A stretch of 44,271 nucleotides of DNA, taken from the NCBI GenBank assembly GCA_001871435.1, contig MNVC01000045.1, positions 1-44,271 on the forward strand, read 5' to 3'. This document shows positions 1,424 through 24,240 of the stretch, in pieces (position 1 is the stretch's first letter; each line of letters starts with the position of its first letter). Below the pieces are notes generated by a model that worked only from the letters and a program-made list of their open reading frames with translations, was not told the DNA's origin and ran no database searches. Both the position numbers and the translations under genes were made by a program. Source of the stretch: Candidatus Magasanikbacteria bacterium CG1_02_32_51. Its GTDB lineage: Bacteria; Patescibacteriota; Patescibacteriia; Magasanikbacterales; UBA922.

Positions 1424-2395
1424 ATGCTCAATTATAAAAAACTAGGGTTTGTAAATACCAAGAAAATGTATACTGAAGCACTCAAAAAAAATTATGCTTT
1501 GCCAGGATACAATTTCAACAATATGGAACAATTGCAAGCTATATTGTCTGCTTGTTTGCAAACACAAAATTCTGTGGTGCTTCAAGTCTCCAAAAAAGCC
1601 TATGAGTATATGGAAGAAAATTTGATTTATCATCTAGTACAAGGTGCTATCGCAACTATGAAAAGTCAAGCCAAGAAAATGAAATTAAAACCAATTGAAG
1701 TAGCTTTACATCTTGATCATGGTGATAGTTATGAACTTTGTGTCTCGGCTATCAAAAATGGTTTTTCTTCGGTAATGATTGATGGTTCTCATTTGTCTTA
1801 TAAAGAAAATATAAAGTTGACAAAAAAAGTTGTAGACTTTGCACACAAATATAATGTGACAGTGGAAGGAGAATTAGGAGTACTTGCTGGAGTAGAGGAT
1901 TATGTCTCAGCTGAGAATCAAGTTTATACTAGACCAGAAGATGTAAAAGATTTTGTGGGCAAGACTGGTGTAGATTCTTTGGCGATTGCTATTGGAACTT
2001 CTCATGGCGCTTACAAATTTAAGCCTGGACAGCAACCAAAAATACGTTTGGATATTTTGCGAGAAATTGAAAAGAAATTGAAAAATTTTCCAATTGTGAT
2101 GCATGGTTCTTCTTCAATACCAAAAGAAGCTGTAAATAAAATAAATAAATACGGTGGAAAGATGGAGCATGCCGTAGGTATTGATCCTAAACAACTTTGT
2201 GAGGCCGTCAAAACGCCAGTCTGTAAAGTTAATATTGATTCTGATAGTAGAATGACTATGACAGCAGGTATTCGTGAATCATTGGCAAAAAATCCAGAGA
2301 ATTTTGATCCTAGGGGTTATATGGGTTTTGCCCGTGAGGCATTAGTAGAGATGTATAAGAAAAAAAATATTGAAGTTTTAGGTTGTGGAAAATAA
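1424..2395 (+). CDS. fba: Class II fructose-bisphosphate aldolase
   Basis: Cleaves fructose 1,6-bisphosphate to dihydroxyacetone phosphate and glyceraldehyde 3-phosphate (and the reverse) with a divalent metal, in the cytosol. The 323-residue length fits the family. Class II marks are visible: YALPGYNFNN near residues 24-33, the zinc-ligand region ALHLDHGDS near 96-104, GFSSVMIDGSHL, VEGELGVLAG with the metal Glu, the phosphate loop AIGTSHGAYK, the second histidine in IVMHGSSSIP, and NIDSDSRMTMT near the C-terminus. It is followed by a terminator and then a TrmB-like regulator with its own promoter. Enolase and phosphoglycerate mutase lie about 30 kb away, giving most of lower glycolysis in this window. 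There is no Shine-Dalgarno before the ATG. Confidence 0.95.
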   Translation: MLNYKKLGFVNTKKMYTEALKKNYALPGYNFNNMEQLQAILSACLQTQNSVVLQVSKKAYEYMEENLIYHLVQGAIATMKSQAKKMKLKPIEVALHLDHGDSYELCVSAIKNGFSSVMIDGSHLSYKENIKLTKKVVDFAHKYNVTVEGELGVLAGVEDYVSAENQVYTRPEDVKDFVGKTGVDSLAIAIGTSHGAYKFKPGQQPKIRLDILREIEKKLKNFPIVMHGSSSIPKEAVNKINKYGGKMEHAVGIDPKQLCEAVKTPVCKVNIDSDSRMTMTAGIRESLAKNPENFDPRGYMGFAREALVEMYKKKNIEVLGCGK

Positions 2396-2528: not shown

Positions 2529-3263
2529 ATGGATATTAATCTTTTCAAAAAAATAGGATTTTCTGACAAATCAGCCAAAGTTTACTTGGTTTTGCTTGGA
2601 CTTGGTCCAAGTTCTATACGTAAATTGTCTGATAGTCTTGATATGAATAGAGGGCAGGTCTATGAAATACTCAAAGAATTGCAAGAAAAAGAGGTAGTAA
2701 AATTTTTTAGAGAAGATACTAAACAGCTTTTTGTAGCTGATGATCCCGAAAGCTTGCGTAAATTGGTGGATAAAAAAGAACATGAACTAAAGATTATCAA
2801 CAAAAGTGTTGATATGGTGATTCCTGAGTTGCAGGCTCTTTATAATTCTGGGGGTAACAGGCCAGTTGCTAAATATTTCAAAGATGATGATATCAAAACA
2901 ATTTTGGAAGATGTTTTGGAGGCATGTGAATCATCTGAAGAAAAAATGTATCGTGTTTATTCGGCAGAAGGTGTGCGTGAACATTTATATGAAGATTTTC
3001 CATCCTTTAGTGATGCACGTATTGCCAAAAATATTACAGTAAAAGTAATTGCTACTGGTAATGGTGGGGAGCTTCGTGGTTTGGACGAAAGAAAATGGCT
3101 CAAACAAGAGAGCAAGACTCCGACCTACATTTTTATCTATCCAGGTAAGACGGCTTATATTTCTTTTGATGCTAAGGATAATTTGGTTGGTGTGATTATT
3201 GAAAATGTTGGGATTTGTGAAACACAGAAGATGATTTTTGATCAGGTTTGGAAGACGTTGTAA
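2529..3263 (+). CDS. TrmB-family transcriptional regulator
   Basis: A 244-residue predicted DNA-binding regulator. Residues 1-75 form a winged helix-turn-helix of TrmB type (FSDKSAKVYLVLLGLG, then SIRKLSDSLDMNRGQVYEIL as the recognition region), followed by a heptad-rich linker near 78-106 that may dimerise. The C-terminal part (about 110-244) resembles the phospholipase-D-like sensor half found in many TrmB relatives. Known TrmB proteins sense sugars and control sugar uptake and glycolysis. Its position directly after fructose-bisphosphate aldolase fits such a role, but the ligand and targets here are not shown by the sequence. It has its own strong promoter. Confidence 0.75.
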   Translation: MDINLFKKIGFSDKSAKVYLVLLGLGPSSIRKLSDSLDMNRGQVYEILKELQEKEVVKFFREDTKQLFVADDPESLRKLVDKKEHELKIINKSVDMVIPELQALYNSGGNRPVAKYFKDDDIKTILEDVLEACESSEEKMYRVYSAEGVREHLYEDFPSFSDARIAKNITVKVIATGNGGELRGLDERKWLKQESKTPTYIFIYPGKTAYISFDAKDNLVGVIIENVGICETQKMIFDQVWKTL

Positions 3264-3444: not shown

Positions 3445-4074
3445 ATGTTCATTATTGATTTCGACGACACTCTATTTGATACCCAAGAGTTTAAACAAGC
3501 AATGGTTAAGAGTTTGGAAAGTGTTGGTGTTAGTAGAAAATTGTTTTGGCAGACCTATATTGAAGCTAGAATGTTGGTAGATGGAAGTCTTTCTTATTCT
3601 TTTGAAAGACATGCCAGAATTTTGGAAAAGCAAGGTTTTGATTATAATGAAATTTTAAGAAATTTTAATTTAATAAATATAAAAAATTTTCTTTTTTTAG
3701 ACGCTATTGATTTTTTGGAAAGTTTGAAAAAAATGGATCAAGATTTGTATTTGCTAAGTTTAGGTGATGAATTTTTTCAAAAATTAAAAGTTGGACAATG
3801 TAATATTGAAAAATATTTTAAAAAAGTTTTTTTTCTTAGTAAAAATAAAGAATTAGCGGTTAAAGAAATATTAGATGAGAACAGCGATAGTAATATCTTT
3901 TTTATTAATGATAAAATAGAGGAGAATTTGAAAATAAAAAATGATTTTCCTGAGATTGAAATAATTTTGAGACAAAGCTCAAATATCCCAGATGAGGAAT
4001 ACAAAAGTAGTGGAATTATTTATTTTCAAAATTTAACAGAAATAAAAAAATATGTTACAGATAAACTTAAATAA
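3445..4074 (+). CDS. HAD-superfamily hydrolase (phosphatase-like)
   Basis: A 209-residue haloacid-dehalogenase-fold protein. Motif I is FIIDFDDTLFDT at residues 2-13, with the nucleophile Asp5 and Asp7. Residues 15-100 form a helical cap, motif II is LLSLGDEF near 103-110, and the acidic motif IV is FFINDKIEEN near 151-160. Many family members are small-molecule phosphatases; the substrate cannot be predicted. Its last 23 bases overlap the start of the nucleotidyltransferase gene, so the two are translationally coupled and may act on the same sugar-phosphate route. A large hairpin stands 55 bases upstream. The gene is more AT-rich than its neighbours. Confidence 0.75.
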   Translation: MFIIDFDDTLFDTQEFKQAMVKSLESVGVSRKLFWQTYIEARMLVDGSLSYSFERHARILEKQGFDYNEILRNFNLINIKNFLFLDAIDFLESLKKMDQDLYLLSLGDEFFQKLKVGQCNIEKYFKKVFFLSKNKELAVKEILDENSDSNIFFINDKIEENLKIKNDFPEIEIILRQSSNIPDEEYKSSGIIYFQNLTEIKKYVTDKLK

Positions 4075-4819
4075 AATTGGTGTAATAGTTTTGGCCGCTG
4101 GCAAAGGTACCCGTCTCAATTGTACTGACAGACCAAAAGTCATGCTTGATTTGAATGGTCAACCTATTGTGAAATACGTGATAGACACTTTGCGTAAAGT
4201 TGGTTTTAGTAATGAACAGATTTGTTTGGTGGTCGGCTTCAAAAATGAATTGGTGAAAGAATATTTTGGTGATACTTTTAGATATGCTCTTCAAGAACCA
4301 CAGTTGGGTACTGGACATGCAGTGATGATGGCTGAAAACGTGATGAAAACTAAATTTGAACATATTGTGGTAATCTATGGTGACTCACCATTTATCAGCG
4401 AAGAAACTATCCGAGCGATTGTTAGCAATAATGTTGAAAACAAGACTGCTGTGACAATGACATCAGTATTATCAGAAAATTATGGAGGTAGTAATGCTAG
4501 ATTTTTTGATTTTGGTAGAGTCGTTAGAGATGAAGCTGATAATATTTTGAACATCACCGAGAAAAAAGATTGTACTGAGGAGCAATTAAAAATAAAGGAA
4601 GGTAATGCTGGTTATTATTGTTTTGAAAGCAAGTGGCTTTGGGACAATTTGCCAAAAATAAAAAGTCACAATGTTCAAAGCGAATATTATTTGACCGACT
4701 TGGTGGATATTGCTATTTTTCAAGGTGAAAAAGTTGAGAGTGTGATAATACCTGCAGAGGAAACAATTGGAATAAATACTTCAGAACAATTGGAACAGGC
4801 TAAGAGAAAGTTAAAATAA
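4052..4819 (+). CDS. glmU: GlmU-type uridylyltransferase, N-terminal domain only
   Basis: A 255-residue nucleotidyltransferase, predicted to make UDP-N-acetylglucosamine from UTP and GlcNAc-1-phosphate. It shows the pyrophosphorylase signature LAAGKGTRL at residues 14-22 with the catalytic Lys in DRPKVML, QEPQLGTGHAVM near 87-98, the metal-binding Asp in VIYGDSPF, NAGYYCF, and the GlmU-like ending SEYYLTDLVDIA followed by GINTSEQL. Full bifunctional GlmU is about 450 residues with a C-terminal left-handed beta-helix that acetylates glucosamine-1-phosphate; that half is absent here. It overlaps the HAD gene by 23 bases and lies 95 bases before glmS, which supports the amino-sugar role. A different UTP-sugar transferase specificity is possible. 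Confidence 0.8.
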   Translation: MLQINLNKIGVIVLAAGKGTRLNCTDRPKVMLDLNGQPIVKYVIDTLRKVGFSNEQICLVVGFKNELVKEYFGDTFRYALQEPQLGTGHAVMMAENVMKTKFEHIVVIYGDSPFISEETIRAIVSNNVENKTAVTMTSVLSENYGGSNARFFDFGRVVRDEADNILNITEKKDCTEEQLKIKEGNAGYYCFESKWLWDNLPKIKSHNVQSEYYLTDLVDIAIFQGEKVESVIIPAEETIGINTSEQLEQAKRKLK

Positions 4820-4914: not shown

Positions 4915-6762
4915 ATGTGTGGAATAATCGGTTACATTGGCAAAAAGCAAGCTTTACCAGTCTTGATAAAAGGTTTGCGTCGTTTGGAATACCGTGGTTA
5001 TGATAGTGCTGGTGTGGCCATCTTGGAAACTGACCAAAATAAAACAGTCATAAAAAGAATTAGGGCTGTGGGTAGGATAGACAATTTGGCTGATAAAATA
5101 AAAGATGAAAAATTTGTTGGTCATGTAGGTATTGCTCATACTCGCTGGGCTACACATGGTGGTGTGACCGAAGAAAATGCTCATCCTCATTTTGGTTGTG
5201 ATGATAGATTAGCTATTGTTCATAATGGTATTATAGAAAATTATCGAGAAATAAAAGAAATGTTGGGTAACAGTCATACCTATAAAACCGAAACAGACAC
5301 AGAAATTTTGGCACATTTGATAGAGTCGTATTATCAAGGTGATTTGCGACTGGCTATAGAAAAAGCTTTATCCTTTGTGCGTGGTACTTATGCTCTTGTA
5401 GCTATACATAGTGATCATCCAGATATGGTTGTTGCTGCACGTCTTGGTAGTCCACTTGTAGTTGGTGTAAATTCTGTTGATGATAATGACGAATATTTTG
5501 TGGCTAGTGATGCCTCACCAATTTTGGCTTATACCAAAAAAGTAATTTTCTTGGATGATAATGAAGTTTTGGAAATTAGTAATGGCAAGATGAATACTTT
5601 TAATTTGAAAGATGAAATTGTCCAAAAAAATATAGAAGAAATAGAGTGGGATGAAAGTGAAGCTCAAAAACAAGGTTTTCCACATTTTATGCTTAAAGAA
5701 ATTTTTGATCAGCCAAGAGTTTTTGTGGATGCTATTCGTGGACGTTATGATTTAAAAAATGGTATTTCTTTTCTGGGTGGTCTCAACATGACCGAAGAAG
5801 AAATGCATAGTATTAATAAAATAATACTTATAGCTTGTGGTACAGCTTCTTATGCTGGTATGGTTGGTAAATACGCTTTTGAGCGTTTAGCAGAAATTTC
5901 TACGACTGTAGAAGTCTCTAGTGAATTTCGTTATAGTGATCCAATTGTTGATAACAAAACTTTGGTATTTGTACTTTCACAGTCTGGAGAGACAGCAGAT
6001 ACTTTGGCTGCTTTGCGTGAGGCCAAGCGCAAAGGTGCTTTTGTGCGTGGTATAGTCAATGTAATTGGGTCAAGTATTGCTAGAGAAACAGATGGTGGTA
6101 CTTATATCCACGCTGGTCCAGAGTTGGCTGTTGCTTCTACTAAAGCTTATACCAATACAGTAGCAGTGTTACTTTTGTATGCTCTACAATTTGGACGTTT
6201 GAAAAGAACAAGCTTGGTTACTGGGGAAAGAATGTTAAAAGCTATGCTTGAAATTCCAGAAAAAATGTCTAAAATTTTGGCACAAAGTGATAAAATAAAA
6301 GCCATTGCTCTAAAATACAAAGATTGTAAGAATATGATGTTTATTGGTCGTGGGATAAATTATCCAGTAGCTTTGGAAGGTGCTTTGAAACTAAAAGAGA
6401 TTTCTTATATTCATGCTGATGCTTTTCCTGGTGGGGAATTGAAACATGGCCATATTGCTTTGCTTAGTGAGGATTTTCCAATATTTGCTATTATGACCAA
6501 AGATCAACTTTATGATAAAATGAGAAGTAATGTAGAAGAAATAAAAGCTAGAAAAGCCCCAATTATACTTATTGCTACCGAAGGTGATGAAAGTGCTAAA
6601 AATTTGTCAGAAGATATTATTTTTGTTCCTGAAACTCTGGAATTGTTGGAACCACTTTTGAATAGTGTAGCTTTGCAATTGTTTGCCTACCATACAGCTG
6701 TATTGCTGGGACGTGATGTGGATAGACCACGCAATTTAGCAAAAAGTGTCACTGTTGAGTAG
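4915..6762 (+). CDS. glmS: Glutamine-fructose-6-phosphate aminotransferase (isomerizing)
   Basis: Makes glucosamine 6-phosphate from fructose 6-phosphate and glutamine, the committed step to UDP-GlcNAc and peptidoglycan. The 615-residue length is full. It begins MCGIIGYIG, so removal of Met exposes the nucleophile Cys of the N-terminal glutaminase. RRLEYRGYDSAG, HTRWATHGGVTEENAHPH and the HNGIIENY loop follow. Two SIS sugar-isomerase domains follow: ACGTASYAG, SQSGETADTLAAL and STKAYTNT in the first, IGRGINYPVALEGALKLKE in the second. The C-terminus DRPRNLAKSVTVE is the usual GlmS tail. It sits between the GlmU-like gene and the YvcK/GlmR-like gene. I see no glmS-ribozyme-like leader in the short gap upstream. 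Confidence 0.97.
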   Translation: MCGIIGYIGKKQALPVLIKGLRRLEYRGYDSAGVAILETDQNKTVIKRIRAVGRIDNLADKIKDEKFVGHVGIAHTRWATHGGVTEENAHPHFGCDDRLAIVHNGIIENYREIKEMLGNSHTYKTETDTEILAHLIESYYQGDLRLAIEKALSFVRGTYALVAIHSDHPDMVVAARLGSPLVVGVNSVDDNDEYFVASDASPILAYTKKVIFLDDNEVLEISNGKMNTFNLKDEIVQKNIEEIEWDESEAQKQGFPHFMLKEIFDQPRVFVDAIRGRYDLKNGISFLGGLNMTEEEMHSINKIILIACGTASYAGMVGKYAFERLAEISTTVEVSSEFRYSDPIVDNKTLVFVLSQSGETADTLAALREAKRKGAFVRGIVNVIGSSIARETDGGTYIHAGPELAVASTKAYTNTVAVLLLYALQFGRLKRTSLVTGERMLKAMLEIPEKMSKILAQSDKIKAIALKYKDCKNMMFIGRGINYPVALEGALKLKEISYIHADAFPGGELKHGHIALLSEDFPIFAIMTKDQLYDKMRSNVEEIKARKAPIILIATEGDESAKNLSEDIIFVPETLELLEPLLNSVALQLFAYHTAVLLGRDVDRPRNLAKSVTVE

Positions 6763-6883: not shown

Positions 6884-7852
6884 ATGAAAAACATTGTCAC
6901 AATTGGAGGAGGAAATGGGATGTCAACCACAGTAAACGCCTTGAAGAGATTTATTTCTGATATTTCTTTATCTGTGATTGTTGGTATGAGTGATTCAGGT
7001 GGTTCTTCTACTGGCAAACTTAGAAAAGAATTGGGTGTTTTACCTCCTGGAGATATTGTGAGAGCTATTTTGTCTGTTTCAAAATATGATTATTACTTTT
7101 TGAAACAAATTTTTTATAAAAATAGATTTTTTGATTCTGGTAAATTGACTAATCATAATATCGGAAATCTATTTTTAACTTTTACAGCACAATATAGTGA
7201 TTTTATGATAGCAGTGAGAGCTTTTGAACAAGCTCTAGAAGCTGTAGCTAAAGTCTATCCGACTACTCTTGAAAAATGTAATTTAGTCGCAGAGTTGGAA
7301 AATGGAGATATTATTTTTGGTGAAGCAGATATTGACGAACCAAAATATGACAAAAAATTGAAAATAAAAAAAATCTGGTTAGAAAAAGAAAATGAAAAAG
7401 AATCTCCGGTTATTTACTTAGGGGCAAAAGAAGCTCTGAAAAAAGCTGATTATATATTTTTTGGTCCAGGTGATCTTTATACTAGTGTGATTGCTACTAT
7501 TTTACCACAAGGTTTTTCGGAAACTCTAAAAAAATCTAAAGCAAAATTAATTTATGTTTTTGGTAATGCTTTTCATATTGAAGGGGAGACTGGCCCGACG
7601 ACTTTTAGTGAAGCAGTTTTGACTTTGGAAAAATATATTGGCAGAAAATTGGACGCTGTTATTTACAATAATCATGTTTTGAATAATAAAGAAATAGAAA
7701 AATATCTAGAGCGTGGCTGGGGGTTGATAAAATATGATAAAGAAAATTTGCCAGAGCATAATATTGTAGAATGCGATTATGAAAGGGTTGGTGGGGGACT
7801 TTGTCCAGATAAGTTGTCTGTTTCACTCAAAGAAATAATGGATTTAAAATAA
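6884..7852 (+). CDS. yvcK: YvcK/GlmR-family protein (CofD-like fold)
   Basis: A 322-residue member of the YvcK family (often annotated gluconeogenesis factor). In Bacillus subtilis YvcK (GlmR) binds UDP-GlcNAc and stimulates GlmS, steering carbon into cell-wall precursors. Here the glycine-rich loop VTIGGGNGMSTT is at residues 5-16, followed by SVIVGMSDSGGSSTGKLRKE and LPPGDIVRAIL. Further family marks are NHNIGNLFL, YIFFGPGDLYTSVIATILPQG and YVFGNAF. The B. subtilis link to GlmS fits well with the position right after glmS, so a regulatory role in amino-sugar synthesis is a reasonable inference. A large hairpin precedes the gene. The GNAT gene follows after 4 bases and is probably cotranscribed. 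Confidence 0.88.
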   Translation: MKNIVTIGGGNGMSTTVNALKRFISDISLSVIVGMSDSGGSSTGKLRKELGVLPPGDIVRAILSVSKYDYYFLKQIFYKNRFFDSGKLTNHNIGNLFLTFTAQYSDFMIAVRAFEQALEAVAKVYPTTLEKCNLVAELENGDIIFGEADIDEPKYDKKLKIKKIWLEKENEKESPVIYLGAKEALKKADYIFFGPGDLYTSVIATILPQGFSETLKKSKAKLIYVFGNAFHIEGETGPTTFSEAVLTLEKYIGRKLDAVIYNNHVLNNKEIEKYLERGWGLIKYDKENLPEHNIVECDYERVGGGLCPDKLSVSLKEIMDLK

Positions 7853-7856
7853 ATTT

Positions 7857-8189
7857 ATGGAAATACAAAAAAAGGAAATAAATAATGTCAAAGCTCTAAA
7901 ATATTTTGTCGAAAAAGATGGTAAAGAGGTTGGTAGAGCTTATGTTTATATTATTAAAAATGATTTACATGTTGATCCTTATGGACTTTTGGAAGATATT
8001 TTTGTAGATGAATCAGCTAGAGGAGGAGGGTTGGGTACTGAATTATTGAAGCAAGCGATTGCTGGCGCCAAAGAAGCTGGTTGTTACAAATTTGTCTCTA
8101 CCAGTCGTAAGAGTCGTGAAAATATTCATGCTTGGTATAGGAAAAATGGTTTTGAAGAATATGGATTGGAGTTTAGAATTACTTTTTAA
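7857..8189 (+). CDS. GNAT-family N-acetyltransferase
   Basis: A 110-residue, single-domain GNAT. The acetyl-CoA-binding motif A is visible as LLEDIFVDESARGGGLGTELLKQ split around RGGGLG (about residues 55-60), and motif B as the C-terminal NIHAWYRKNGFEEYGLEF. The first strand and helix are short, as in minimal GNATs. The substrate is unknown. It starts 4 bases after the yvcK-like stop. Because the GlmU-like protein lacks its acetyltransferase half, one can ask whether a separate acetyltransferase supplies that step, but GlmU's own domain is of the left-handed beta-helix type and nothing in this sequence shows that substrate. Confidence 0.85.
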   Translation: MEIQKKEINNVKALKYFVEKDGKEVGRAYVYIIKNDLHVDPYGLLEDIFVDESARGGGLGTELLKQAIAGAKEAGCYKFVSTSRKSRENIHAWYRKNGFEEYGLEFRITF

Positions 8190-8332: not shown

Positions 8333-9556
8333 ATGAACCTATACGAATTTGAAGGTCGAGAATTACTCGAGAAACATGGTATTATAATTCCCGTAGGAGA
8401 AGTCGTCAGACGTGGTGATAATATTGCTGATGCTTATAGAAAATTAGGACTTGAAGAGGTTGTAGTGAAAGCACAAGTTTTGTCTGGTAAGCGTGGTAAA
8501 AATAATGGAATTAAATTTTGTAAAAATATTGAAGAAGTAAAAAAAGCAGTAAAAGAAATTTTTGAGATGTCTATTCGTGGACAATATGTTGCTTCTATAC
8601 TTATAACAGAAAAAATAAATATTGCATCAGAAAATTATTTGTCTATTACTTATGATACTAATCGCAAACAACCAGTTCTAATTTTTAGTGAAGATGGTGG
8701 AGTGGATATTGAAGATGTGGTAGAAGATAAAATTGTAAAAATACTTTTAGATATTAGAAAAAATAAATTACCAGAAAATATTTCTTTACCACAAGATATT
8801 TTGGTTGTTGCCGAAAATCTTTGGCAATGTTTTTTGGCAGAAGACACACGTCTGGTGGAAATAAATCCTTTGGTAAAAACTACGGATGGTAAAATCATAG
8901 CGCTTGATGCCAAGATTGCTCTTGATGATGATGCCTTCTATCGTCATTGTATTGAGGCTCAAGATCGGGCTAAAGAAAAAGGCTTAGATTCTGAGACAAT
9001 CACTGATTGGGCAAAATTTGAAACACGTACTATGCTTGGTCGCCCAGCAACAGAGCGTGAAATTGCTGTGCAAGAAATAGACAAAGGAGAAAAATATTAT
9101 CAAGGTACGGCTGGTAAGTACATTGAATTAGATGGGGATATTGCTTTGATTTTAAATGGTGGTGGTGCTAGTATTGCTAATATGGATGCGCTTATTAAAG
9201 TTGGTTTGAAACCAGCCAACTATACAGAATATTCTGGTAATCCTCCACGTGAAAAAGTCTATGCACTGGCCAAAATTGTTTTGTCTAAATCAGGAATAAA
9301 AGGTCTATGGATGTGCGGAGTTGTGGCTAATTTTACCAATGTAGAGGAAACCTTCAAGGGTATTGTGGATGCCTTAGATAAAATCAAACCTGCCTTTCCA
9401 ATAGTCGTGCGTCGGGCTGGACCTCATGACAAAGAAGGAATGAAATTGTTGGCAGATTGTGCTAAAAGAAATAATTTGAATATAAAAATATTTGGGAAAG
9501 AAATAAGTATGAGTGAGACTGCTCAGGTTTTGGCTGATTTAATAAATAAAAATTGA
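8333..9556 (+). CDS. ATP-citrate lyase / citryl-CoA synthetase ATP-grasp subunit (SucC-like)
   Basis: A 407-residue ATP-grasp acyl-CoA ligase subunit, easily mistaken for succinyl-CoA synthetase beta (about 388 residues). The ATP-grasp part shows VVVKAQVLSGKRGKNNGIKF at 43-62 and the metal site EINPL at 176-180. The C-terminal half matches ATP-citrate lyase better than SucC: GGGAS at 276-280, ANYTEYSG at 295-302, ANFTNVEETFKGI at 332-344, RRAGP at 360-364 and KIFGKEISM near 385-393. With the SucD-like and lyase genes downstream it would activate citrate to citryl-CoA using ATP and CoA. The comparison is from memory of family sequences. The next gene starts 1 base after the stop. Confidence 0.82.
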   Translation: MNLYEFEGRELLEKHGIIIPVGEVVRRGDNIADAYRKLGLEEVVVKAQVLSGKRGKNNGIKFCKNIEEVKKAVKEIFEMSIRGQYVASILITEKINIASENYLSITYDTNRKQPVLIFSEDGGVDIEDVVEDKIVKILLDIRKNKLPENISLPQDILVVAENLWQCFLAEDTRLVEINPLVKTTDGKIIALDAKIALDDDAFYRHCIEAQDRAKEKGLDSETITDWAKFETRTMLGRPATEREIAVQEIDKGEKYYQGTAGKYIELDGDIALILNGGGASIANMDALIKVGLKPANYTEYSGNPPREKVYALAKIVLSKSGIKGLWMCGVVANFTNVEETFKGIVDALDKIKPAFPIVVRRAGPHDKEGMKLLADCAKRNNLNIKIFGKEISMSETAQVLADLINKN

Positions 9557-9557
9557 T

Positions 9558-10040
9558 ATGAAAAAAGTTTATATATTTTTAGTATTTAGTTTTTTTGTTT
9601 TGTTTCCATTTTCAAGTATTGCCGTTACTTGCAGAGATAACTATAATGATGATTATTTTTGTGAGAAGCAAGGGTATAATCTAGAGAAAGGAAATGGTTG
9701 TCAACCAAGAATTTGTGTTTTTCCTGATGGTAGTAAATGTTCATCAGATACTTTTTTGCACGGAACTTGTGGTGTTGAGTTTAGAAAACCAACCTCTTGT
9801 GTTGAGAATGGTCATATAGTGCAAGGTTATGAAGTATGCTGTAATGGGAAAAAATTATTAAATTATGGTGCTGGAGAATACTCTGGTTACGCAACTTGTG
9901 AGAGTTTTTTAACATACCCTTATAAAAATTTACCATCAAATACGAGAGTTATTATTTCACAAGCAATTTTTTTTATAGCTTTGTTTAGTGGTTTATTTAT
10001 AATTGGTTTTTTTATAAAAAAATTGTTTAAGAAAAAATAA
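9558..10040 (+). CDS. Cys-rich secreted/membrane-anchored protein inside the citrate-cleavage operon
   Basis: A 160-residue protein I do not recognise. It has an N-terminal signal peptide (KKVYIFLVFSFFVLFPF, residues 2-18, likely cleaved near 22-24) and an outer domain of about 100 residues with ten cysteines, including an adjacent pair in YEVCCNGK. A C-terminal membrane helix at about 133-154 is followed by the basic tail KKLFKKK. This suggests a disulfide-bonded extracytoplasmic domain held by a C-terminal anchor. It is packed between the two ligase subunits with gaps of 1 and 2 bases, so it is cotranscribed with cytosolic enzymes although its topology is extracytoplasmic. Its role is unknown. 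Confidence 0.75.
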   Translation: MKKVYIFLVFSFFVLFPFSSIAVTCRDNYNDDYFCEKQGYNLEKGNGCQPRICVFPDGSKCSSDTFLHGTCGVEFRKPTSCVENGHIVQGYEVCCNGKKLLNYGAGEYSGYATCESFLTYPYKNLPSNTRVIISQAIFFIALFSGLFIIGFFIKKLFKKK

Positions 10041-10042
10041 TT

Positions 10043-10939
10043 ATGTCAATTCTAATCAACAAAAATACCAAAGTCTTAGTCCAAGGTATCACTGGCAACG
10101 AAGGTGAGAAGGCTACAAGAGCTATGCTAGAATATGGCACAAATGTCGTTGGTGGTGTACGTCCAGGTAAAGGTGGAGAAGAAGTGCTCGGTAAACCAGT
10201 CTTCAATACTGTGGCTGAAGCAGTAAAAAAATTTCCAGATATAACTACCACGACTATTTATGTACCACCATTTGCAACTAAAGCAGCAATCATGGAAGCA
10301 GTAGAAGCTGATATTCCTCAAATCAATACTATTGTTGAGCGTATCCCAATTCGTGATACGGCTTATTGTCTAGCTGCGGCACAAGAAAAAAATATTCAAA
10401 TTATCGGGCCAAGTTCACTAGGGCTAATCGCGCCAGGCATTGGTCGGATTGGTGTAGTTGGTGGACCAAAAGAGCAAGCTGATGAAATATTTACTCCAGG
10501 TAGTATTGGGATTATTTCTCGTTCTGGTGGTATGACCAATGAAGTTTCTTGGCAAGTGCGTAAAGCTGGATTAGGACAAAGTACGGCTGTGCATGTGGGT
10601 GGAGATTTACTCATGGGTACAACTTATGTAGATTTGTTAAAACTTTTTGAAAAAGATGAACAGACAGAAGCTGTAATAATTTTTGGTGAGCATGGTGGAA
10701 GCTACGAATTTGAAATAGTAGATTTGATAAAAAATAAACAATATTCTAAACCCTTAGCTATTTACATTGGTGGTAAGTTTGCCAGTACTTTGCCAGAAGG
10801 TATGAATATTGGTCATGCTGGAGCGATTGTGGAGAGGGGTAAAGGAGCTTTGGAGAAATCAGAAGCCCTTAACAAAGTTGGTGTTATGATTGCTGATAGA
10901 TATGAAGATTTAGTAGAACTTATTAATCCATTTGCTTGA
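10043..10939 (+). CDS. ATP-citrate lyase / citryl-CoA synthetase CoA-ligase alpha subunit (SucD-like)
   Basis: A 298-residue CoA-binding ligase subunit. It has the N-terminal Rossmann-type CoA domain (VLVQGITGNEG at 11-21, VGGVRPGKGG) and the phosphohistidine site GHAGAI with His258. The activating Glu loop is GEHGG at 215-219. The signature SRSGGMTNE at 159-167 is like ATP-citrate lyase (SRSGGMSNE); succinyl-CoA synthetase normally has SRSGTLTYE. This favours citrate over succinate as the acid, together with the lyase gene 108 bases downstream. It would carry the phosphoryl group on His258 and form citryl-CoA with the ATP-grasp subunit. Automatic pipelines would probably call it succinyl-CoA ligase alpha. 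Confidence 0.85.
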   Translation: MSILINKNTKVLVQGITGNEGEKATRAMLEYGTNVVGGVRPGKGGEEVLGKPVFNTVAEAVKKFPDITTTTIYVPPFATKAAIMEAVEADIPQINTIVERIPIRDTAYCLAAAQEKNIQIIGPSSLGLIAPGIGRIGVVGGPKEQADEIFTPGSIGIISRSGGMTNEVSWQVRKAGLGQSTAVHVGGDLLMGTTYVDLLKLFEKDEQTEAVIIFGEHGGSYEFEIVDLIKNKQYSKPLAIYIGGKFASTLPEGMNIGHAGAIVERGKGALEKSEALNKVGVMIADRYEDLVELINPFA

Positions 10940-10998
10940 GAGAAGTCGTCAATTACAACACTTCGGTAAAATTATAATTTAATTAAATAGTACGCAGG

Positions 10999-11038
10999 GT
11001 CTACAGATCCCTCCCCGCCGATTCGGCGGGTCAGGATA
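10999..11038 (+). repeat. GTCTACAGATCC...TCAGGATAA intergenic repeat, copy 3
   Basis: Same flanks as at 4873-4904, here around a GC-rich palindrome (CCCGCCG, ATT, CGGCGGG at 11014-11030). It ends 9 bases before the citryl-CoA lyase ATG and interrupts an otherwise tight operon. Confidence 0.55.
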
Positions 11039-11047
11039 AATAATAAT

Positions 11048-11770
11048 ATGAAATTTCAAACAAGAATAACCAAAGTAGAAAATGGACAAGAAATAATTTA
11101 TGGACAAAATTTGGAAAAATTGATGGAGGAAAATACTTTTGCTCAAAATATTTTTTTCCTACTTACTAGCAAATTGCCAAATGAAAAGGCAAGTAAAATG
11201 TTTGAAGCAATATTGAGTTCAATCATTGATCATGGTCCTGCTACAGCTTCAGCCATGATTGCTCGTATTTCAGCTTCTGCCAAAAATTCTTTGCATGCTT
11301 CTGTGGCTGCAGGATTGCTTGGTCTTGGTGAGAGACATGGTGTAGTTATTTCTCAAGCTATGGATTTTTTTTATGAACATGTGGAAGAAAAAGATTTATC
11401 AAGTTTACTTACCAAAATGAAAGAAGAAAAAAAGTATGTATTAGGGTTTGGACATAAATTTTTTATAGACACTGATCCTCGCACTTTGAAACTTTTTTCT
11501 TTAGCAAAGGAAAATGAAATTTTTGGTGTACATTGCGAATTGGCTTTGGCAATAGAAAAAAACTTAAATGAAATATCTTCCAAAAAATTGCCTCTCAATG
11601 CTGATGGGGCCATCGCTGCTATTTTGTGTGATATGAAGTTGGAAAGTAGTATTGGTAATGGAGTTTTTGTTATTGCTCGTGTACCCGGACTTGTTGCTCA
11701 AATTTTGGAAGAAGTGAATAATGATGTAGGGATTAGAAGGTTAGATGATGGTGAAATTGAGTATCTATAA
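11048..11770 (+). CDS. Citryl-CoA lyase (citrate-synthase-fold subunit of split ATP-citrate lyase)
   Basis: A 240-residue citrate-synthase-fold protein, much shorter than citrate synthase (about 430) and close to the C-terminal domain of ATP-citrate lyase. Residues equivalent to the catalytic triad are present: His62 in DHGPATASAM, His136 in LGFGHK and Asp186 in LNADGAIA. The tail GVFVIARVPGLVAQILEE matches the lyase domain (GIFVLGRSMGFIGHYLDQ in animal ACLY, from memory). Predicted reaction: citryl-CoA to acetyl-CoA plus oxaloacetate. The gene order ATP-grasp, CoA-ligase, lyase is the same as the domain order of fused ATP-citrate lyase. A separate lyase plus two-subunit synthetase is known from Hydrogenobacter thermophilus. 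Another 3-hydroxy-acyl-CoA substrate remains possible. Confidence 0.82.
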   Translation: MKFQTRITKVENGQEIIYGQNLEKLMEENTFAQNIFFLLTSKLPNEKASKMFEAILSSIIDHGPATASAMIARISASAKNSLHASVAAGLLGLGERHGVVISQAMDFFYEHVEEKDLSSLLTKMKEEKKYVLGFGHKFFIDTDPRTLKLFSLAKENEIFGVHCELALAIEKNLNEISSKKLPLNADGAIAAILCDMKLESSIGNGVFVIARVPGLVAQILEEVNNDVGIRRLDDGEIEYL

Positions 11771-11925: not shown

Positions 11926-13188
11926 ATGAAAAAAGTGCTTGATCTTCATATCCATTCCAAATATTCTCGTGCTTGTTCCAAAAGTTTGGAGTTGCCTTTA
12001 ATTGCTAAGACTTGTGAAACAAAGGGAATTGATATTGTTGCCACTTCGGATTTTACACATCCAAAATGGTTTGCACATATGAAAGATAGTTTGGTAGAAG
12101 ATAATGCAGGGATTTATAAATTAAAAGACAATTCTAGTAAAACTAGATTTATTATTGGTACAGAGTTAGCTTCAATTAGAAAACATAAAGACAAAACGCG
12201 TAGAATTCATTTGTTAGTTTTTGCACCAAGTCTAAAAGTTGCAGAAAAATTTAATAATACTTTAGAAAAGAGAGGTTTTAATTTGAAATCAGATGGTCGT
12301 CCAATACTTGGTCTTACTTCCAAAGAAATTTTGGAGTTAATGCTTGAGACTGATGAACGTATGATGATGATTCCGGCGCATGCTTGGACACCATGGTTTG
12401 GTATTTTTGGTTCCAAAGGTGGATATGATTCACTTGAAGATGCTTTTGAAGAATTGACACCGTACGTACGAGCCATAGAGACTGGTCTATCAAGTGATCC
12501 TATTATGAATTGGCGTTTATCAGCTTTGGATAATATTACGCTTATATCTAATTCTGACGCACATAGCAACGCCAAATTAGGTAGAGAAGCAAATGTTTTT
12601 GATTTTAATTCAGAAAAAGATATTACTTATAATGAAATAAAAAGAATTATTGATGTTGGAGATAAAAAAAAGTTTTTACATACTTTAGAATTTTTTCCTG
12701 AAGAAGGGAAGTATCATTATGATGGGCATGCTGTTTGTAATTTTTCTTGTTCGCCAGAAGAAACAAAAAAATATAAAGGACTTTGTCCAAAATGTCATAA
12801 GAAATTAATTATTGGGGTAGAAAATAGAGTTTTTGAATTGTCAGATAGGACTGTAGAAGAAACAATAATTGTTGGTAAAAATAAAATACCTTACAGAAGC
12901 ATTGTTCCTCTAGCAGAAGTTATTGCGGATACTTATAGTTGTGGTGTTGGTACCAAACGTGTATTAGAAACTTATAATAATTTGATAAAAAATATTGGTA
13001 ATGAATTTCTAATTTTATTAGAAGCTAATTTGAAAAAAATTTCTGAAGTTGGTGGTAAAGATATTGCTGTAGCGATTGATCGTGTACGTAATGGAAATAT
13101 CTTTGTGAAGCCAGGATATGATGGAGTGTTTGGTGTAGTAAAAGTTTTTCAAGATAGAGAAGTCGGACAAGAAATTTTGGATTTGTAA
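11926..13188 (+). CDS. Endonuclease Q-like PHP-domain DNA repair protein
   Basis: A 420-residue PHP-domain protein with the layout of endonuclease Q, first characterised in Pyrococcus furiosus, which nicks DNA 5' to deaminated bases and abasic sites. The metal site residues are visible: DLHIHSKYSRA (Asp6, His8, His10), Asp42, IIGTEL (Glu80), RRIHLLVF (His95), PAHAWTPWFGIFG (His152) and SNSDAHS (Asp211, His213). A four-cysteine zinc knuckle follows (Cys271, Cys275, Cys287, Cys290), then a helical C-terminal region. The length is close to that of the archaeal enzyme (about 424). An older annotation for this family is simply PHP-domain hypothetical protein. A convergent terminator separates it from the Lys-rich gene. 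Confidence 0.82.
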   Translation: MKKVLDLHIHSKYSRACSKSLELPLIAKTCETKGIDIVATSDFTHPKWFAHMKDSLVEDNAGIYKLKDNSSKTRFIIGTELASIRKHKDKTRRIHLLVFAPSLKVAEKFNNTLEKRGFNLKSDGRPILGLTSKEILELMLETDERMMMIPAHAWTPWFGIFGSKGGYDSLEDAFEELTPYVRAIETGLSSDPIMNWRLSALDNITLISNSDAHSNAKLGREANVFDFNSEKDITYNEIKRIIDVGDKKKFLHTLEFFPEEGKYHYDGHAVCNFSCSPEETKKYKGLCPKCHKKLIIGVENRVFELSDRTVEETIIVGKNKIPYRSIVPLAEVIADTYSCGVGTKRVLETYNNLIKNIGNEFLILLEANLKKISEVGGKDIAVAIDRVRNGNIFVKPGYDGVFGVVKVFQDREVGQEILDL

Positions 13189-18247: not shown

Positions 18248-19090
18248 TTATGACAAAGTTTTTTTTGTTTTTTTGTTAGCTAAAAAATTTTCACCAGTTA
18301 CTATAGATTTACCAGTTTTTTGTTCCAAAGCTCTGCGAGCATCTTTGGCTATTTTGCCACCTTTTTTGGCAGGCACTTTGTTTTGTTCTAATCCTTCTGC
18401 CTTGGTATGATCAGCAATTTGACGAGTAGATAATTCTGCTAGAGCTGTGAAAATCAACTCGGCTTCAGTCATGTGATCTCGTAGATTTTGAGTTTTGAGT
18501 CCTTTCAAATTTTTGTGATCTTTCACTGACAATTCTGACCACTCTTGATGAATAATATTGGTTAGTATGGCAAACTCGTCGCCTTTTTTTACACCATGAT
18601 CACTCCAATAGTCAGTCAACTTGTTTCTGGTTTCTTGCCTCATCATTCTTTGTTGGATCCATTTGGTGCTTCTACCTTGTTTTTGCCAATATTCACGTGA
18701 ACGGTTGAGAGCTTTTTCTGGATCTATCATTTCTTGCATCCTTTCATAACCAACTTTGGCGAGCCAAAGTTTGATTGGTTCGGCTTTTTTGCTAGGTATA
18801 GATTGAATTAGCCTCAACAAAGTTTCGACATCAGCGACGTCTGTCTCTCTCATTTTGCTGTCTTGAGCTACTATTTTCAACCGGTGACAATTTGTCACCA
18901 CTTCACTTCCTTCTTGTTTCAGACGTTCAGATAGTTTATTCCAATATTTTCTGGCAGTTTGATAATCAAATTGTTCAGTGAGAATAGCTACAATATCCAC
19001 AACTGAAAAATACCATATTTCTTTTTTTTCATCATAAATACGACGGACTTTGAAATTTTCAAAGATAGACAAGGAAGTTTTATTTTTCAT
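18248..19090 (-). CDS. BRO-N / DinD-like protein (phage antirepressor family)
   Basis: A 280-residue protein. The N-terminal 110 residues resemble the BRO/antirepressor DNA-binding domain (VRRIYDEKKEIWYFSVVDIV, ending in the ETLLRLIQSIPSKKAEPIKLWLA segment). The C-terminal part resembles DNA-damage-inducible protein D: NLRDHMTEAELIFTALAELS, TRQIADHTKAEGLEQNK, GGKIAKDARRALEQKTGKS and IVTGENF. The role of DinD in Escherichia coli is linked to the SOS response and RecA; BRO domains come from phages. It begins 13 bases after the uvrA stop on the same strand, so it is the last gene of that operon. A damage-related role is inferred. There are no other phage genes nearby. Confidence 0.78.
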   Translation of the reverse strand: MKNKTSLSIFENFKVRRIYDEKKEIWYFSVVDIVAILTEQFDYQTARKYWNKLSERLKQEGSEVVTNCHRLKIVAQDSKMRETDVADVETLLRLIQSIPSKKAEPIKLWLAKVGYERMQEMIDPEKALNRSREYWQKQGRSTKWIQQRMMRQETRNKLTDYWSDHGVKKGDEFAILTNIIHQEWSELSVKDHKNLKGLKTQNLRDHMTEAELIFTALAELSTRQIADHTKAEGLEQNKVPAKKGGKIAKDARRALEQKTGKSIVTGENFLANKKTKKTLS

Positions 19091-21972: not shown

Positions 21973-23508
21973 TTATTTTGGTGGGGAATAGCCAAATTTT
22001 GCATAACATCTGGTAAAGTCAGATAGATTATCCACATCACATATCTTGTCTATATCAATATGAAAATAAATACCTTTTTTTAGTTCCTCAGCTTTTATCA
22101 AGTATTTGTCTATAATATTTTTTGAGAGGACTTGAGCTGCTGGTTTTGCATATGGTTTTAGAGCAATGTTAAGGGCTGGGCTTAAGAAAAAATCAGTCAT
22201 AGAAATACCCGTACCAGTGGAGATAAAAAGATCATCCTCTAGATCATCCCCATCATCAGCTAGATCTATTGCTTGTCCTGTTGCCCTATCAATACCAAAA
22301 TAATGTTCATCATTATTGAAAGATCCTTCTTCGTTGATAGAGAGAAAAAGTACAAAACCTTTGATTTCGCCGTCTCCACTACAGTAGTTATGGTTTATTT
22401 TTGATGGTGGTATAATTGAGAAAAACTCTTGAATTAGTTTGTCACTATTTATGTAGATTTCTTCGCTAGGATCTTTGGTGTCTATACTTAAATCTTCAAG
22501 TTTACCATTTTTACATACAGCTTTTATGTCTATATCATTTTTACCATCATCCGTTAGCCATTTCCATTCCCATCCTTCACCAAATACAGTACTTAAAATA
22601 ATGGCTAAAGTATTTTTTTGAACGAAGTTGTCTGTAACAGATGAAGAATAGACAATACCAGCTATATTGGCAGTATTACAGGCTTTACTACTAGCTATTG
22701 GTTTTTGGTAGCAAACTTGTCCATCACTTAGACACGAATTTCCTCCACAAGTCTGTCCACCAGTTTTATTCACATAATAATCATTGCCACAGATTGAAGT
22801 TTTGTCGGCTGTAGTACTATCGGGAATAAAAAATTTTGCACTTGCCAAATCTGTGGGTGGAGTTGTTGCAGATTGATTTTTTGCCAAAGCTATCATGGTA
22901 ACTTTTTTGGGACCTTGATCCAAACTTTCACAATTTACTGGAGCAATACCACTAGTATTGATAGCCCAGATACTTGGTAACCTAAGCTCTACCAGATAAG
23001 GATTGATAGTCTTGAGGATTGTAAAAGACAATGCCATGAGTACTAGTCCAGTGATGGCTCCGTAGATTTTTTTCTTGGCTTGGCCGACTGTATCAGAATT
23101 GCCACCAGAAAAAATATACATGACACCGGCGACGATGATGACCATCACGGCAATTACTGAACCGATTATGAAAGCGTATTGATAAATGAATTTTATGAAT
23201 TCACCAATATTACTAAATTTTGTTCTGCCACCAAAAGATATAGAAGTAACAGTCTCTCCGGCCGGTAAACAAAAACCAATATTTCTACCAGTGAAATCTT
23301 TACCATCAGCTCCTGTTTTACAAGCCTCTTTGGCATCCATATGTAGGTCGGCGCTATAGAATCCACCAATGGCATCAACAGAGCCAAAAGTTTCTCTGAA
23401 TTTTTTACAGTCCTCTTCCAGCCAACATCTTTGGTCTAATGCTGCAAAGCTTGTTTTTGGGATTAACAAAAAAATTAATACTAAAGTGAGAAATATTTTT
23501 TTCTGCAT
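21973..23508 (-). CDS. Secreted VirB2/pilin-like membrane protein with large Cys-rich domain
   Basis: A 511-residue protein. A signal peptide occupies residues 1-22 (cleavage near SFA-A). A Cys-containing segment follows, then two membrane helices at about 110-134 and 148-168 joined by a short polar loop ([14 protein letters not shown]). This paired-helix layout is like VirB2/TrbC pilins and is common in Patescibacteria. The remaining 330 residues are soluble and Cys-rich ([28 protein letters not shown] and others), with no domain I can name. The DsbA-like gene starts immediately upstream (6-base gap), which suggests that it folds this protein. Part of a surface or secretion structure is the best inference. 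Confidence 0.7.
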
Positions 23509-23514
23509 AGTATT

Positions 23515-24240
23515 TTATTTGTTTAAATTTTTGATAATTAATTTGTCCCATTCATCGGCAGTAATATTACCTTCAACAATTTCACCATTTATAATATAGG
23601 TAGGAGTACCACGCAAACCAATACTTACAGCATCTGTCAGATCGCGTTCAATATTGTCAACATATTTTTGACTCTTGACACAAAGGTCAAATTTGTTTAT
23701 ATCAAGTCCAATATTTGTGCCATAGTTATAGAGAGAGTCAGTATCTAGTTTTTTGGCAGTAAAAATCTGATCATAATATTCCCAAAATTTGTTTTGTTCG
23801 TTGGCACAAGTCCCTGCAATAGCTGCTAGTGTAGCGTTGGGGTGGATTTCTGTAAGAGGTAAATTTTTGAAGACAACCTGAACAACTGGTTTGTATTTTT
23901 CTAAAACGTGGGCAAAAATAGGATAACTTGCTTGGCAATATGGACACTCAAAATCTATAAAAGCCATAATAGTTATTTTGGCGTCTTTGGCCCCTATTGT
24001 TGGATTGTATTTTTGGAGTAGTTTGCTATAGTCACTTATATTTTGTGGTGCATTTTTGTCTATAGCTGTACTAAAATTTGGTTCATATTTTTTGGTTATT
24101 TTTTGGATATCATTGTTATTTCCATATTTGAATTGGATAGAATAATAGATAAAAAATCCCAAAAATATTATAAAAATCAAGCCAATAATAATACCTAATG
24201 ATATAAATAAATACTTCCAAAATTTTGATTGTTTAGGCAT
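23515..24240 (-). CDS. DsbA-family thiol oxidoreductase, membrane-anchored
   Basis: A 241-residue thioredoxin-fold protein. One N-terminal membrane helix (about residues 10-35) anchors it with the catalytic domain outside. The redox motif is CPYC at 99-102 in AFIDFECPYCQASYP, and the cis-proline loop is LRGTPTYIINGEIV near 213-226, with the inserted helical domain between (residues about 120-205). These are the marks of DsbA/DsbG-like proteins that form or isomerise disulfides in exported proteins. It is the first gene of a minus-strand operon and its stop is 6 bases before the Cys-rich pilin-like gene, its likely client. Promoter boxes lie directly upstream. Confidence 0.9.
   Translation of the reverse strand: MPKQSKFWKYLFISLGIIIGLIFIIFLGFFIYYSIQFKYGNNNDIQKITKKYEPNFSTAIDKNAPQNISDYSKLLQKYNPTIGAKDAKITIMAFIDFECPYCQASYPIFAHVLEKYKPVVQVVFKNLPLTEIHPNATLAAIAGTCANEQNKFWEYYDQIFTAKKLDTDSLYNYGTNIGLDINKFDLCVKSQKYVDNIERDLTDAVSIGLRGTPTYIINGEIVEGNITADEWDKLIIKNLNK

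Follow-up and report, generated by a model that had tools for sequence, protein, structure and literature searches.

The window analysed here is the whole of contig MNVC01000045.1 (44,271 nucleotides; contig C19 of the genome) of Candidatus Magasanikbacteria bacterium CG1_02_32_51, a tiny bacterium dependent on a host, whose genome of 837,160 bases in 48 contigs is 91.4% complete. At positions 8333-11770 it carries three genes that very probably encode, judging by their sequences, a citryl-CoA synthetase of two subunits (CcsA and CcsB) and, as a third protein, a citryl-CoA lyase (Ccl), and these genes lie within an operon for UDP-N-acetylglucosamine (UDP-GlcNAc). An earlier sequence-only reading of this DNA had placed here three clustered genes for an ATP-grasp ligase, a CoA-ligase alpha subunit and a stand-alone lyase. 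Open reading frames and Pfam domains agree with those assignments and positions, but an extra gene between ccsA and ccsB had been overlooked. The genes are:

8333..9556, + strand: ccsA, citryl-CoA synthetase large subunit, ATP-grasp and citrate-binding domain, 407 aa (Pfam, PDB match, motifs, tree, model)
9558..10040, + strand: membrane or secreted protein unrelated to the enzyme, 160 aa (weak DUF333 match; not conserved)
10043..10939, + strand: ccsB, citryl-CoA synthetase small subunit with the phospho-histidine motif GHAGAI, 298 aa (Pfam, motifs, tree)
11048..11770, + strand: ccl, stand-alone citryl-CoA lyase of citrate-synthase fold, 240 aa (NF004869; best PDB match 6hxp_A)

Identity and distribution of the three enzymes

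CcsA combines an ATP-grasp_2 with a Citrate_bind domain (8e-30), CcsB contains the CoA_binding, Ligase_CoA and Succ_CoA_lig domains, and Ccl matches the C-terminal domain of Citrate_synt (1e-34) but is missing the large N-terminal portion found in citrate synthase. The architecture is that of an ATP-grasp large subunit with a citrate-binding domain, a CoA-ligase small subunit and a lyase, all encoded separately. In NCBIfam, Ccl scores above the citryl-CoA lyase cut-off (NF004869, 237 bits versus 212). The top names for CcsA and CcsB are succinate-CoA ligase, as had been expected of annotation pipelines (sucC and sucD), with both scores under the SucC and SucD cut-offs (248 of 370 and 292 of 336 bits, respectively). 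The Hydrogenobacter pair, previously proposed as the precedent, was indeed recovered: the nearest PDB sequence matches are the H. thermophilus citryl-CoA synthetase large subunit for CcsA (6hxq_B, 7e-63) and citryl-CoA lyase for Ccl (6hxp_A, 2.6e-50). For CcsB they are succinyl-CoA synthetase alpha chains, with 6hxq_A a close second. A structural model of CcsA (mean pLDDT 91.6) had 6hxq_B as its top fold match (Z 35.8 over 381 residues, root mean square deviation 5.8). Because this match is tied with a SucC model (Z 35.4), fold alone cannot separate the families for CcsA.

The ATP-citrate lyase (ACL)-type words pointed out earlier are all in place, SRSGGMTNE in CcsB and ANYTEYSG and ANFTNVEETFKGI in CcsA. 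CcsA also has the ACL-type loop ANFTN and RRxGP, of which Asn333, Thr335, Arg360 and Arg361 are invariant in 28 sequences. The GHAGAI motif of CcsB spans residues 257-262, and its His258 is invariant in 10 diverse relatives. The three lyase residues that had been singled out are all present here; across 28 relatives neither His136 nor Asp186 varies, but His62 is replaced by Asn in a few of them. In the trees, succinyl-CoA synthetase forms a separate clade (support 99 for the large and 100 for the small subunit) and ACL another, set on a long branch, both apart from the window proteins. All three window proteins group with sequences from the candidate phyla radiation (CPR), DPANN archaea and H. 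thermophilus, with weakly supported inner order. Neither ligase subunit thus falls among succinyl-CoA synthetases, nor does the lyase fall within citrate synthase; the placements that would have refuted the sequence-only reading were looked for without success. Its label of a split ACL needs refining, as the set is better described as citryl-CoA synthetase plus lyase than as a split of the fused enzyme.

Like the window enzymes, H. thermophilus CcsA, CcsB and Ccl are three separate polypeptides. They differ in the length of CcsB (298 aa here versus 353 aa) and in the citrate loop of CcsA (ANFTN here, as in ACL, versus ANNTR). The H. thermophilus enzymes serve carbon fixation via the reductive tricarboxylic acid (TCA) cycle, whereas this cycle was not found in the window genome and the genes lie in an amino-sugar operon. 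Two-subunit ACL (Chlorobium, Methanothrix and Patescibacteria loci L073-L083) has in common with the window enzyme the overall reaction, domain order and citrate-loop words. In these Patescibacteria, which carry ACL separately, most loci have the lyase and the CoA-ligase subunit as one fused protein (~590-610 aa), and the sequences lie on a separate long branch; the window lyase is unfused. Published reports describe two-subunit ACL from a gracilibacterium (PMC6851277), and aclAB from Patescibacteria metagenome-assembled genomes (MAGs) (PMC9671151) and from Saccharimonadia (PMC12577380). Citryl-CoA synthetase and lyase are mentioned in passing, together with carbon fixation, for a few hydrothermal DPANN MAGs. 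These enzymes are probably of the same family, and their role, operon and CPR distribution are not given in the passages concerned (PMC8091004). Succinyl-CoA synthetase (SucC/SucD) has the same fold and phospho-histidine mechanism as CcsA/CcsB, but it reads SRSGTLTYE in place of SRSGGMTNE and lacks the ANFTN and RRxGP citrate residues.

The product of the extra gene has hydrophobic ends, is Cys-rich and membrane-anchored, and in relatives the spot between ccsA and ccsB holds other genes or none. It was rejected as a fourth enzyme subunit because it is not conserved.

Among named genomes, scanning confirmed 219 relatives, of which the best 80 belong to CPR (Magasanik-, Davies-, Curtiss- and Uhrbacteria and others), DPANN (Diapherotrites, Woese-, Micr- and Nanohaloarchaeota), a few Acidobacteriota and one Heimdallarchaeota bin, although bin contamination is possible in this set. 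The order ccsA-ccsB-ccl is retained in most of about 100 relatives; as it recurs across two domains of life, chance is excluded, and the cluster is neither rare nor isolated but widespread. In one Diapherotrites row (L150:488-9460), phosphoenolpyruvate (PEP) carboxylase, aconitase, isocitrate dehydrogenase, ccsA, ccsB and ccl stand together with a convergent malic enzyme gene whose product is 59% identical to the malic enzyme of the window genome. This row is apparently a citrate branch with the citryl-CoA pair in place of citrate synthase. It supports citrate as the presumed substrate of CcsA-CcsB.

Several relatives show further features. Short divergent ligase-ligase-lyase sets on long branches occur at L070 (genome G224) and L071 (G041, without glmS); their CcsA-like proteins (271-313 aa) have a truncated ATP-grasp region, their Ccl-like proteins are 191-221 aa, and they are perhaps a system for a different substrate or a degenerate one. 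Candidate citrate importers adjoin ccl in a Magasanikbacteria relative (CitMHS-family transporter with a CBS protein right after ccl, L055:2584-4374) and in a Woesearchaeota relative (TctA-family transporter, L178:7194-8384).

The UDP-GlcNAc operon and the sources of acetyl-CoA

Upstream and downstream of the cluster, the row contains the following genes:

1424..2395, + strand: class II fructose-bisphosphate aldolase (FBA), first gene of the conserved row (NCBIfam; same place in relatives)
2529..3263, + strand: TrmB-type sugar-responsive transcription regulator (Pfam TrmB, 1.6e-12)
3445..4074, + strand: HAD-family phosphatase-like gene (NCBIfam HAD-IA; conserved neighbour)
4052..4819, + strand: N-terminal domain of GlmU only (UDP-GlcNAc pyrophosphorylase); the hexapeptide acetyltransferase half is missing (GlmU models matched only over positions 2-236 of 447)
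4915..6762, + strand: GlmS, glutamine-fructose-6-phosphate transaminase (TIGR01135, 750 bits, above cut-off)
6884..7852, + strand: YvcK/CofD-like UDP-GlcNAc-binding protein (TIGR01826, above cut-off)
7857..8189, + strand: small GNAT acetyltransferase, candidate glucosamine-6-phosphate N-acetyltransferase (GNA1-like; Pfam Acetyltransf_7, family profile)
11926..13188, + strand: PHP-domain protein, TIGR00375, conserved last gene of the row (NCBIfam; conserved in relatives), after ccsA, the extra gene, ccsB and ccl

The family profile of the GNAT matches an uncharacterised GNAT best, with GNA1 structures (yeast and others) next among the top matches. A hexapeptide GlmU acetyltransferase elsewhere in the genome was considered and rejected: the sole match (C30:16608-17693) resembles long RmlA by sequence, not GlmU. 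Terminators inside the operon showed no excess over shuffled sequences, and promoters exceeded the shuffles only weakly.

We compared this operon, and the presence or absence of genes, across 59 related genomes, 22 of which have ccsA. In 21 of the 22, no more than 8 kb separates the gene from glmS, and the remaining copy is on a 4.5-kb contig. The same row holds ccsA-ccsB-ccl, the 2-oxoacid:ferredoxin oxidoreductase KorABC, Tdh-Kbl, or combinations of them; relatives without the cluster have KorABC between GlmU and GlmS and/or Tdh-Kbl in the row, and a few genomes combine KorABC with the cluster. All eight Kbl proteins above the family cut-off are in the glmS row, as are all 16 short-alpha three-gene KorABC sets (13 on the glmS contig and three at contig ends beside GlmU/HAD). 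These three unrelated modules take different positions within the same operon, and acetyl-CoA is what Kbl, Ccl and a KorABC of pyruvate type all make. The amino-sugar link is also found in unrelated CPR clades, in which ccsA directly adjoins glmS (L067-L069 and L168) or shares one row with glmS and yvcK (L195). The same gene adjoins an archaeal-type bifunctional GlmU at 10 loci of Daviesbacteria and their kin, and a hexapeptide acetyltransferase at L148 and L149.

Four acetyl-CoA routes were counted (the cluster, KorABC, a separate pyruvate oxidoreductase (POR) and Kbl). Full-length glmS is present in 47 of the 59 genomes, and at least one route was found in 44 of these 47 versus one of the 12 without glmS (p=1.5e-8). 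Within the glmS-positive genomes the cluster avoids the other routes (6 with both, 16 with the cluster only, 22 with another route only, 3 with neither; p=2.7e-5). These association tests do not fully correct for descent; with one genome per genus, the median p was 2e-5 for glmS versus route and 2e-4 for avoidance. Malic enzyme was commoner in cluster genomes than in those with KorABC only (16/22 versus 1/13, p=3e-4). The higher frequency of CitMHS in cluster-bearing than in other genomes (8/22 versus 3/37, p=0.013) is only suggestive.

The whole window genome was searched with E. coli protein queries, which distant homologues can escape and for which family searches are a stronger substitute. 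In line with the check for TCA genes proposed earlier, no second citrate synthase or succinyl-CoA synthetase, aconitase, isocitrate dehydrogenase or malate dehydrogenase was detected, and neither were pyruvate dehydrogenase (PDH), pyruvate:ferredoxin oxidoreductase (PFOR), Acs, AckA, Pta, PEP carboxykinase or PEP carboxylase. No POR, pyruvate formate-lyase (PFL) or Kbl was recognised either, whereas malic enzyme and PEP synthase are present. Aconitase, PFL and phosphotransacetylase (PTA) are each found in 0/59 relatives. Since PDH, pyruvate oxidoreductase, PFL, PTA/AckA, Acs and Kbl were not recognised, ccsA-ccsB-ccl is, as far as the gene content indicates, the only recognised source of acetyl-CoA in this genome.

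A proposed role and its alternatives

We propose that the cluster is a citrate-splitting enzyme feeding amino-sugar N-acetylation, an explanation to which, taken as a whole, we assign a probability of roughly two in three. CcsA and CcsB would transfer phosphate from ATP to the CcsB histidine and then form citryl-CoA from citrate bound in CcsA, and Ccl, as a separate protein, would cleave it to acetyl-CoA and oxaloacetate. The small GNAT encoded just upstream would then use this citrate-derived acetyl group for N-acetylation of glucosamine phosphate, and the malic enzyme, whose gene lies at another place in the genome, would probably deal with the oxaloacetate. Under this proposal, provision of these acetyl groups would be the chief task of the cluster and would explain its place in the UDP-GlcNAc operon. 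Of the parts of the proposal, the identity of the enzymes is well supported, and citrate cleavage is the likely direction here; for the main purpose, acetylation of amino sugars is the inference with the best support, held with somewhat less confidence. The specificity of the GNAT, the fate of oxaloacetate and the origin of citrate are presumed in the same scheme.

Several observations weigh against it. Reaction direction is not readable from sequence, and the Diapherotrites row looks arranged for citrate synthesis. The GNAT is only GNA1-like, with an uncharacterised GNAT as its top match, and DPANN relatives lack an amino-sugar link near the cluster. KorABC has a 2-ketoisovalerate subunit as its top NCBIfam name, below cut-off, so that pyruvate is only a candidate substrate, and three glmS-positive genomes (G012, G031 and G038) have none of the four routes. 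The absences rest on a genome that is 9% incomplete, and the amino-sugar route was the acetyl-CoA sink examined. A citrate importer, for which the sequence-only reading had suggested looking, was not recognised in the window genome with E. coli CitT and CitMHS-relative queries or by Pfam on ten genes; CitMHS is absent, and no tricarboxylate family was seen among six candidate transporters scanned.

It is possible, although unlikely, that citrate is cleaved to provide acetyl-CoA for general needs, such as protein or tRNA acetylation, energy or polysaccharide, and that the place in the operon is merely inherited gene order. Because gene order is kept within a single family, the members of that family are not independent data points, and DPANN as well as several CPR clades have no amino-sugar neighbours. 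On the other hand, inheritance does not easily account for three unrelated modules at different positions of one operon, for unrelated CPR clades that repeat the amino-sugar link with different acetyltransferases, or for a glmS correlation that holds with one genome per genus. The enzymes might also run in reverse, making citrate and ATP from acetyl-CoA and oxaloacetate and so conserving energy by substrate-level phosphorylation, with citrate exported or passed into a partial TCA branch. The reactions are reversible in principle, and the PEP carboxylase, aconitase and isocitrate dehydrogenase of the Diapherotrites row fit citrate synthesis there. We consider this rather improbable for the window genome, which has no recognised enzyme to make the acetyl-CoA and in whose 59 compared relatives aconitase was not found; moreover, the cluster avoids other acetyl-CoA-making routes rather than accompanying them.

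Two further alternatives concern the identity of the enzymes. A ligase-lyase pair for another acid, for example 2-methylcitrate or citramalate, is conceivable in a superfamily whose ligase subunits accept many acids, given that CcsB is near SucD in sequence and that the divergent short sets exist. It is quite improbable, considering that the citrate-loop residues match those of ACL, the best matches are citrate enzymes and one relative lies in a citrate gene row. A plain succinyl-CoA synthetase next to a citrate synthase fragment has in its favour the top NCBIfam names of the ligase subunits, but both identities were rejected by scores and trees: the ligase scores are under cut-off, succinyl-CoA synthetase keeps to its own clade in both trees, and Ccl exceeds the citryl-CoA lyase cut-off without the large N-terminal part. 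We regard this last alternative as scarcely credible.

Besides this cluster, the window encodes a BRO-N domain protein (18248-19090), a domain frequent in viruses and mobile elements, and a type IV secretion system pilin-domain gene adjoining a DsbA/thioredoxin-like protein related to a selenolipoprotein family (21973-24240). Elsewhere in the genome, a 1382-aa protein matches Cas12a models with E=0 in PADLOC, which identifies a type V-A CRISPR effector (C36:7548-11696, L118), and two closely spaced proton-antiporter-type membrane subunits (C14:33548-38633, L132 and L133) suggest a complex I-like or hydrogenase-linked ion pump.

A possible acetyl-CoA supply for amino sugars in Patescibacteria

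The enzyme itself is of a known kind; what is new is that it is built into the UDP-GlcNAc operon, where it is one of several acetyl-CoA modules that can stand in for one another. No description of this arrangement was found in the searchable open-licence literature, where only the ACL reports and the single passing DPANN mention came up for the cluster in CPR, although an earlier account elsewhere is possible. In the literature found, the origin of acetyl-CoA in CPR bacteria, which have almost no central metabolism and yet need it for amino sugars, is unexplained. With odds only slightly better than even, we suggest that the UDP-GlcNAc operon of these Patescibacteria holds an exchangeable acetyl-CoA supply into which the citrate pair, KorABC or the threonine-using Tdh-Kbl is plugged, and that these cells, which lack both a TCA cycle and pyruvate dehydrogenase, make acetyl-CoA chiefly for cell-wall amino sugars.

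The operon pattern would predict the external carbon source of each lineage (citrate, a 2-oxoacid such as pyruvate, or threonine), which in turn suggests media and host links for cultivation. In annotations, the two ligase subunits will probably go under the name succinyl-CoA synthetase and be mistaken for remnants of the TCA cycle, an error that can now be corrected. With its wide spread in CPR and DPANN, the enzyme family covers sequences intermediate between succinyl-CoA synthetase, citryl-CoA synthetase and ACL, which bears on the origin of citrate synthase. If the proposal is true, citryl-CoA synthetase and lyase would be a biosynthetic accessory to peptidoglycan in these bacteria, fed by host or environmental citrate.

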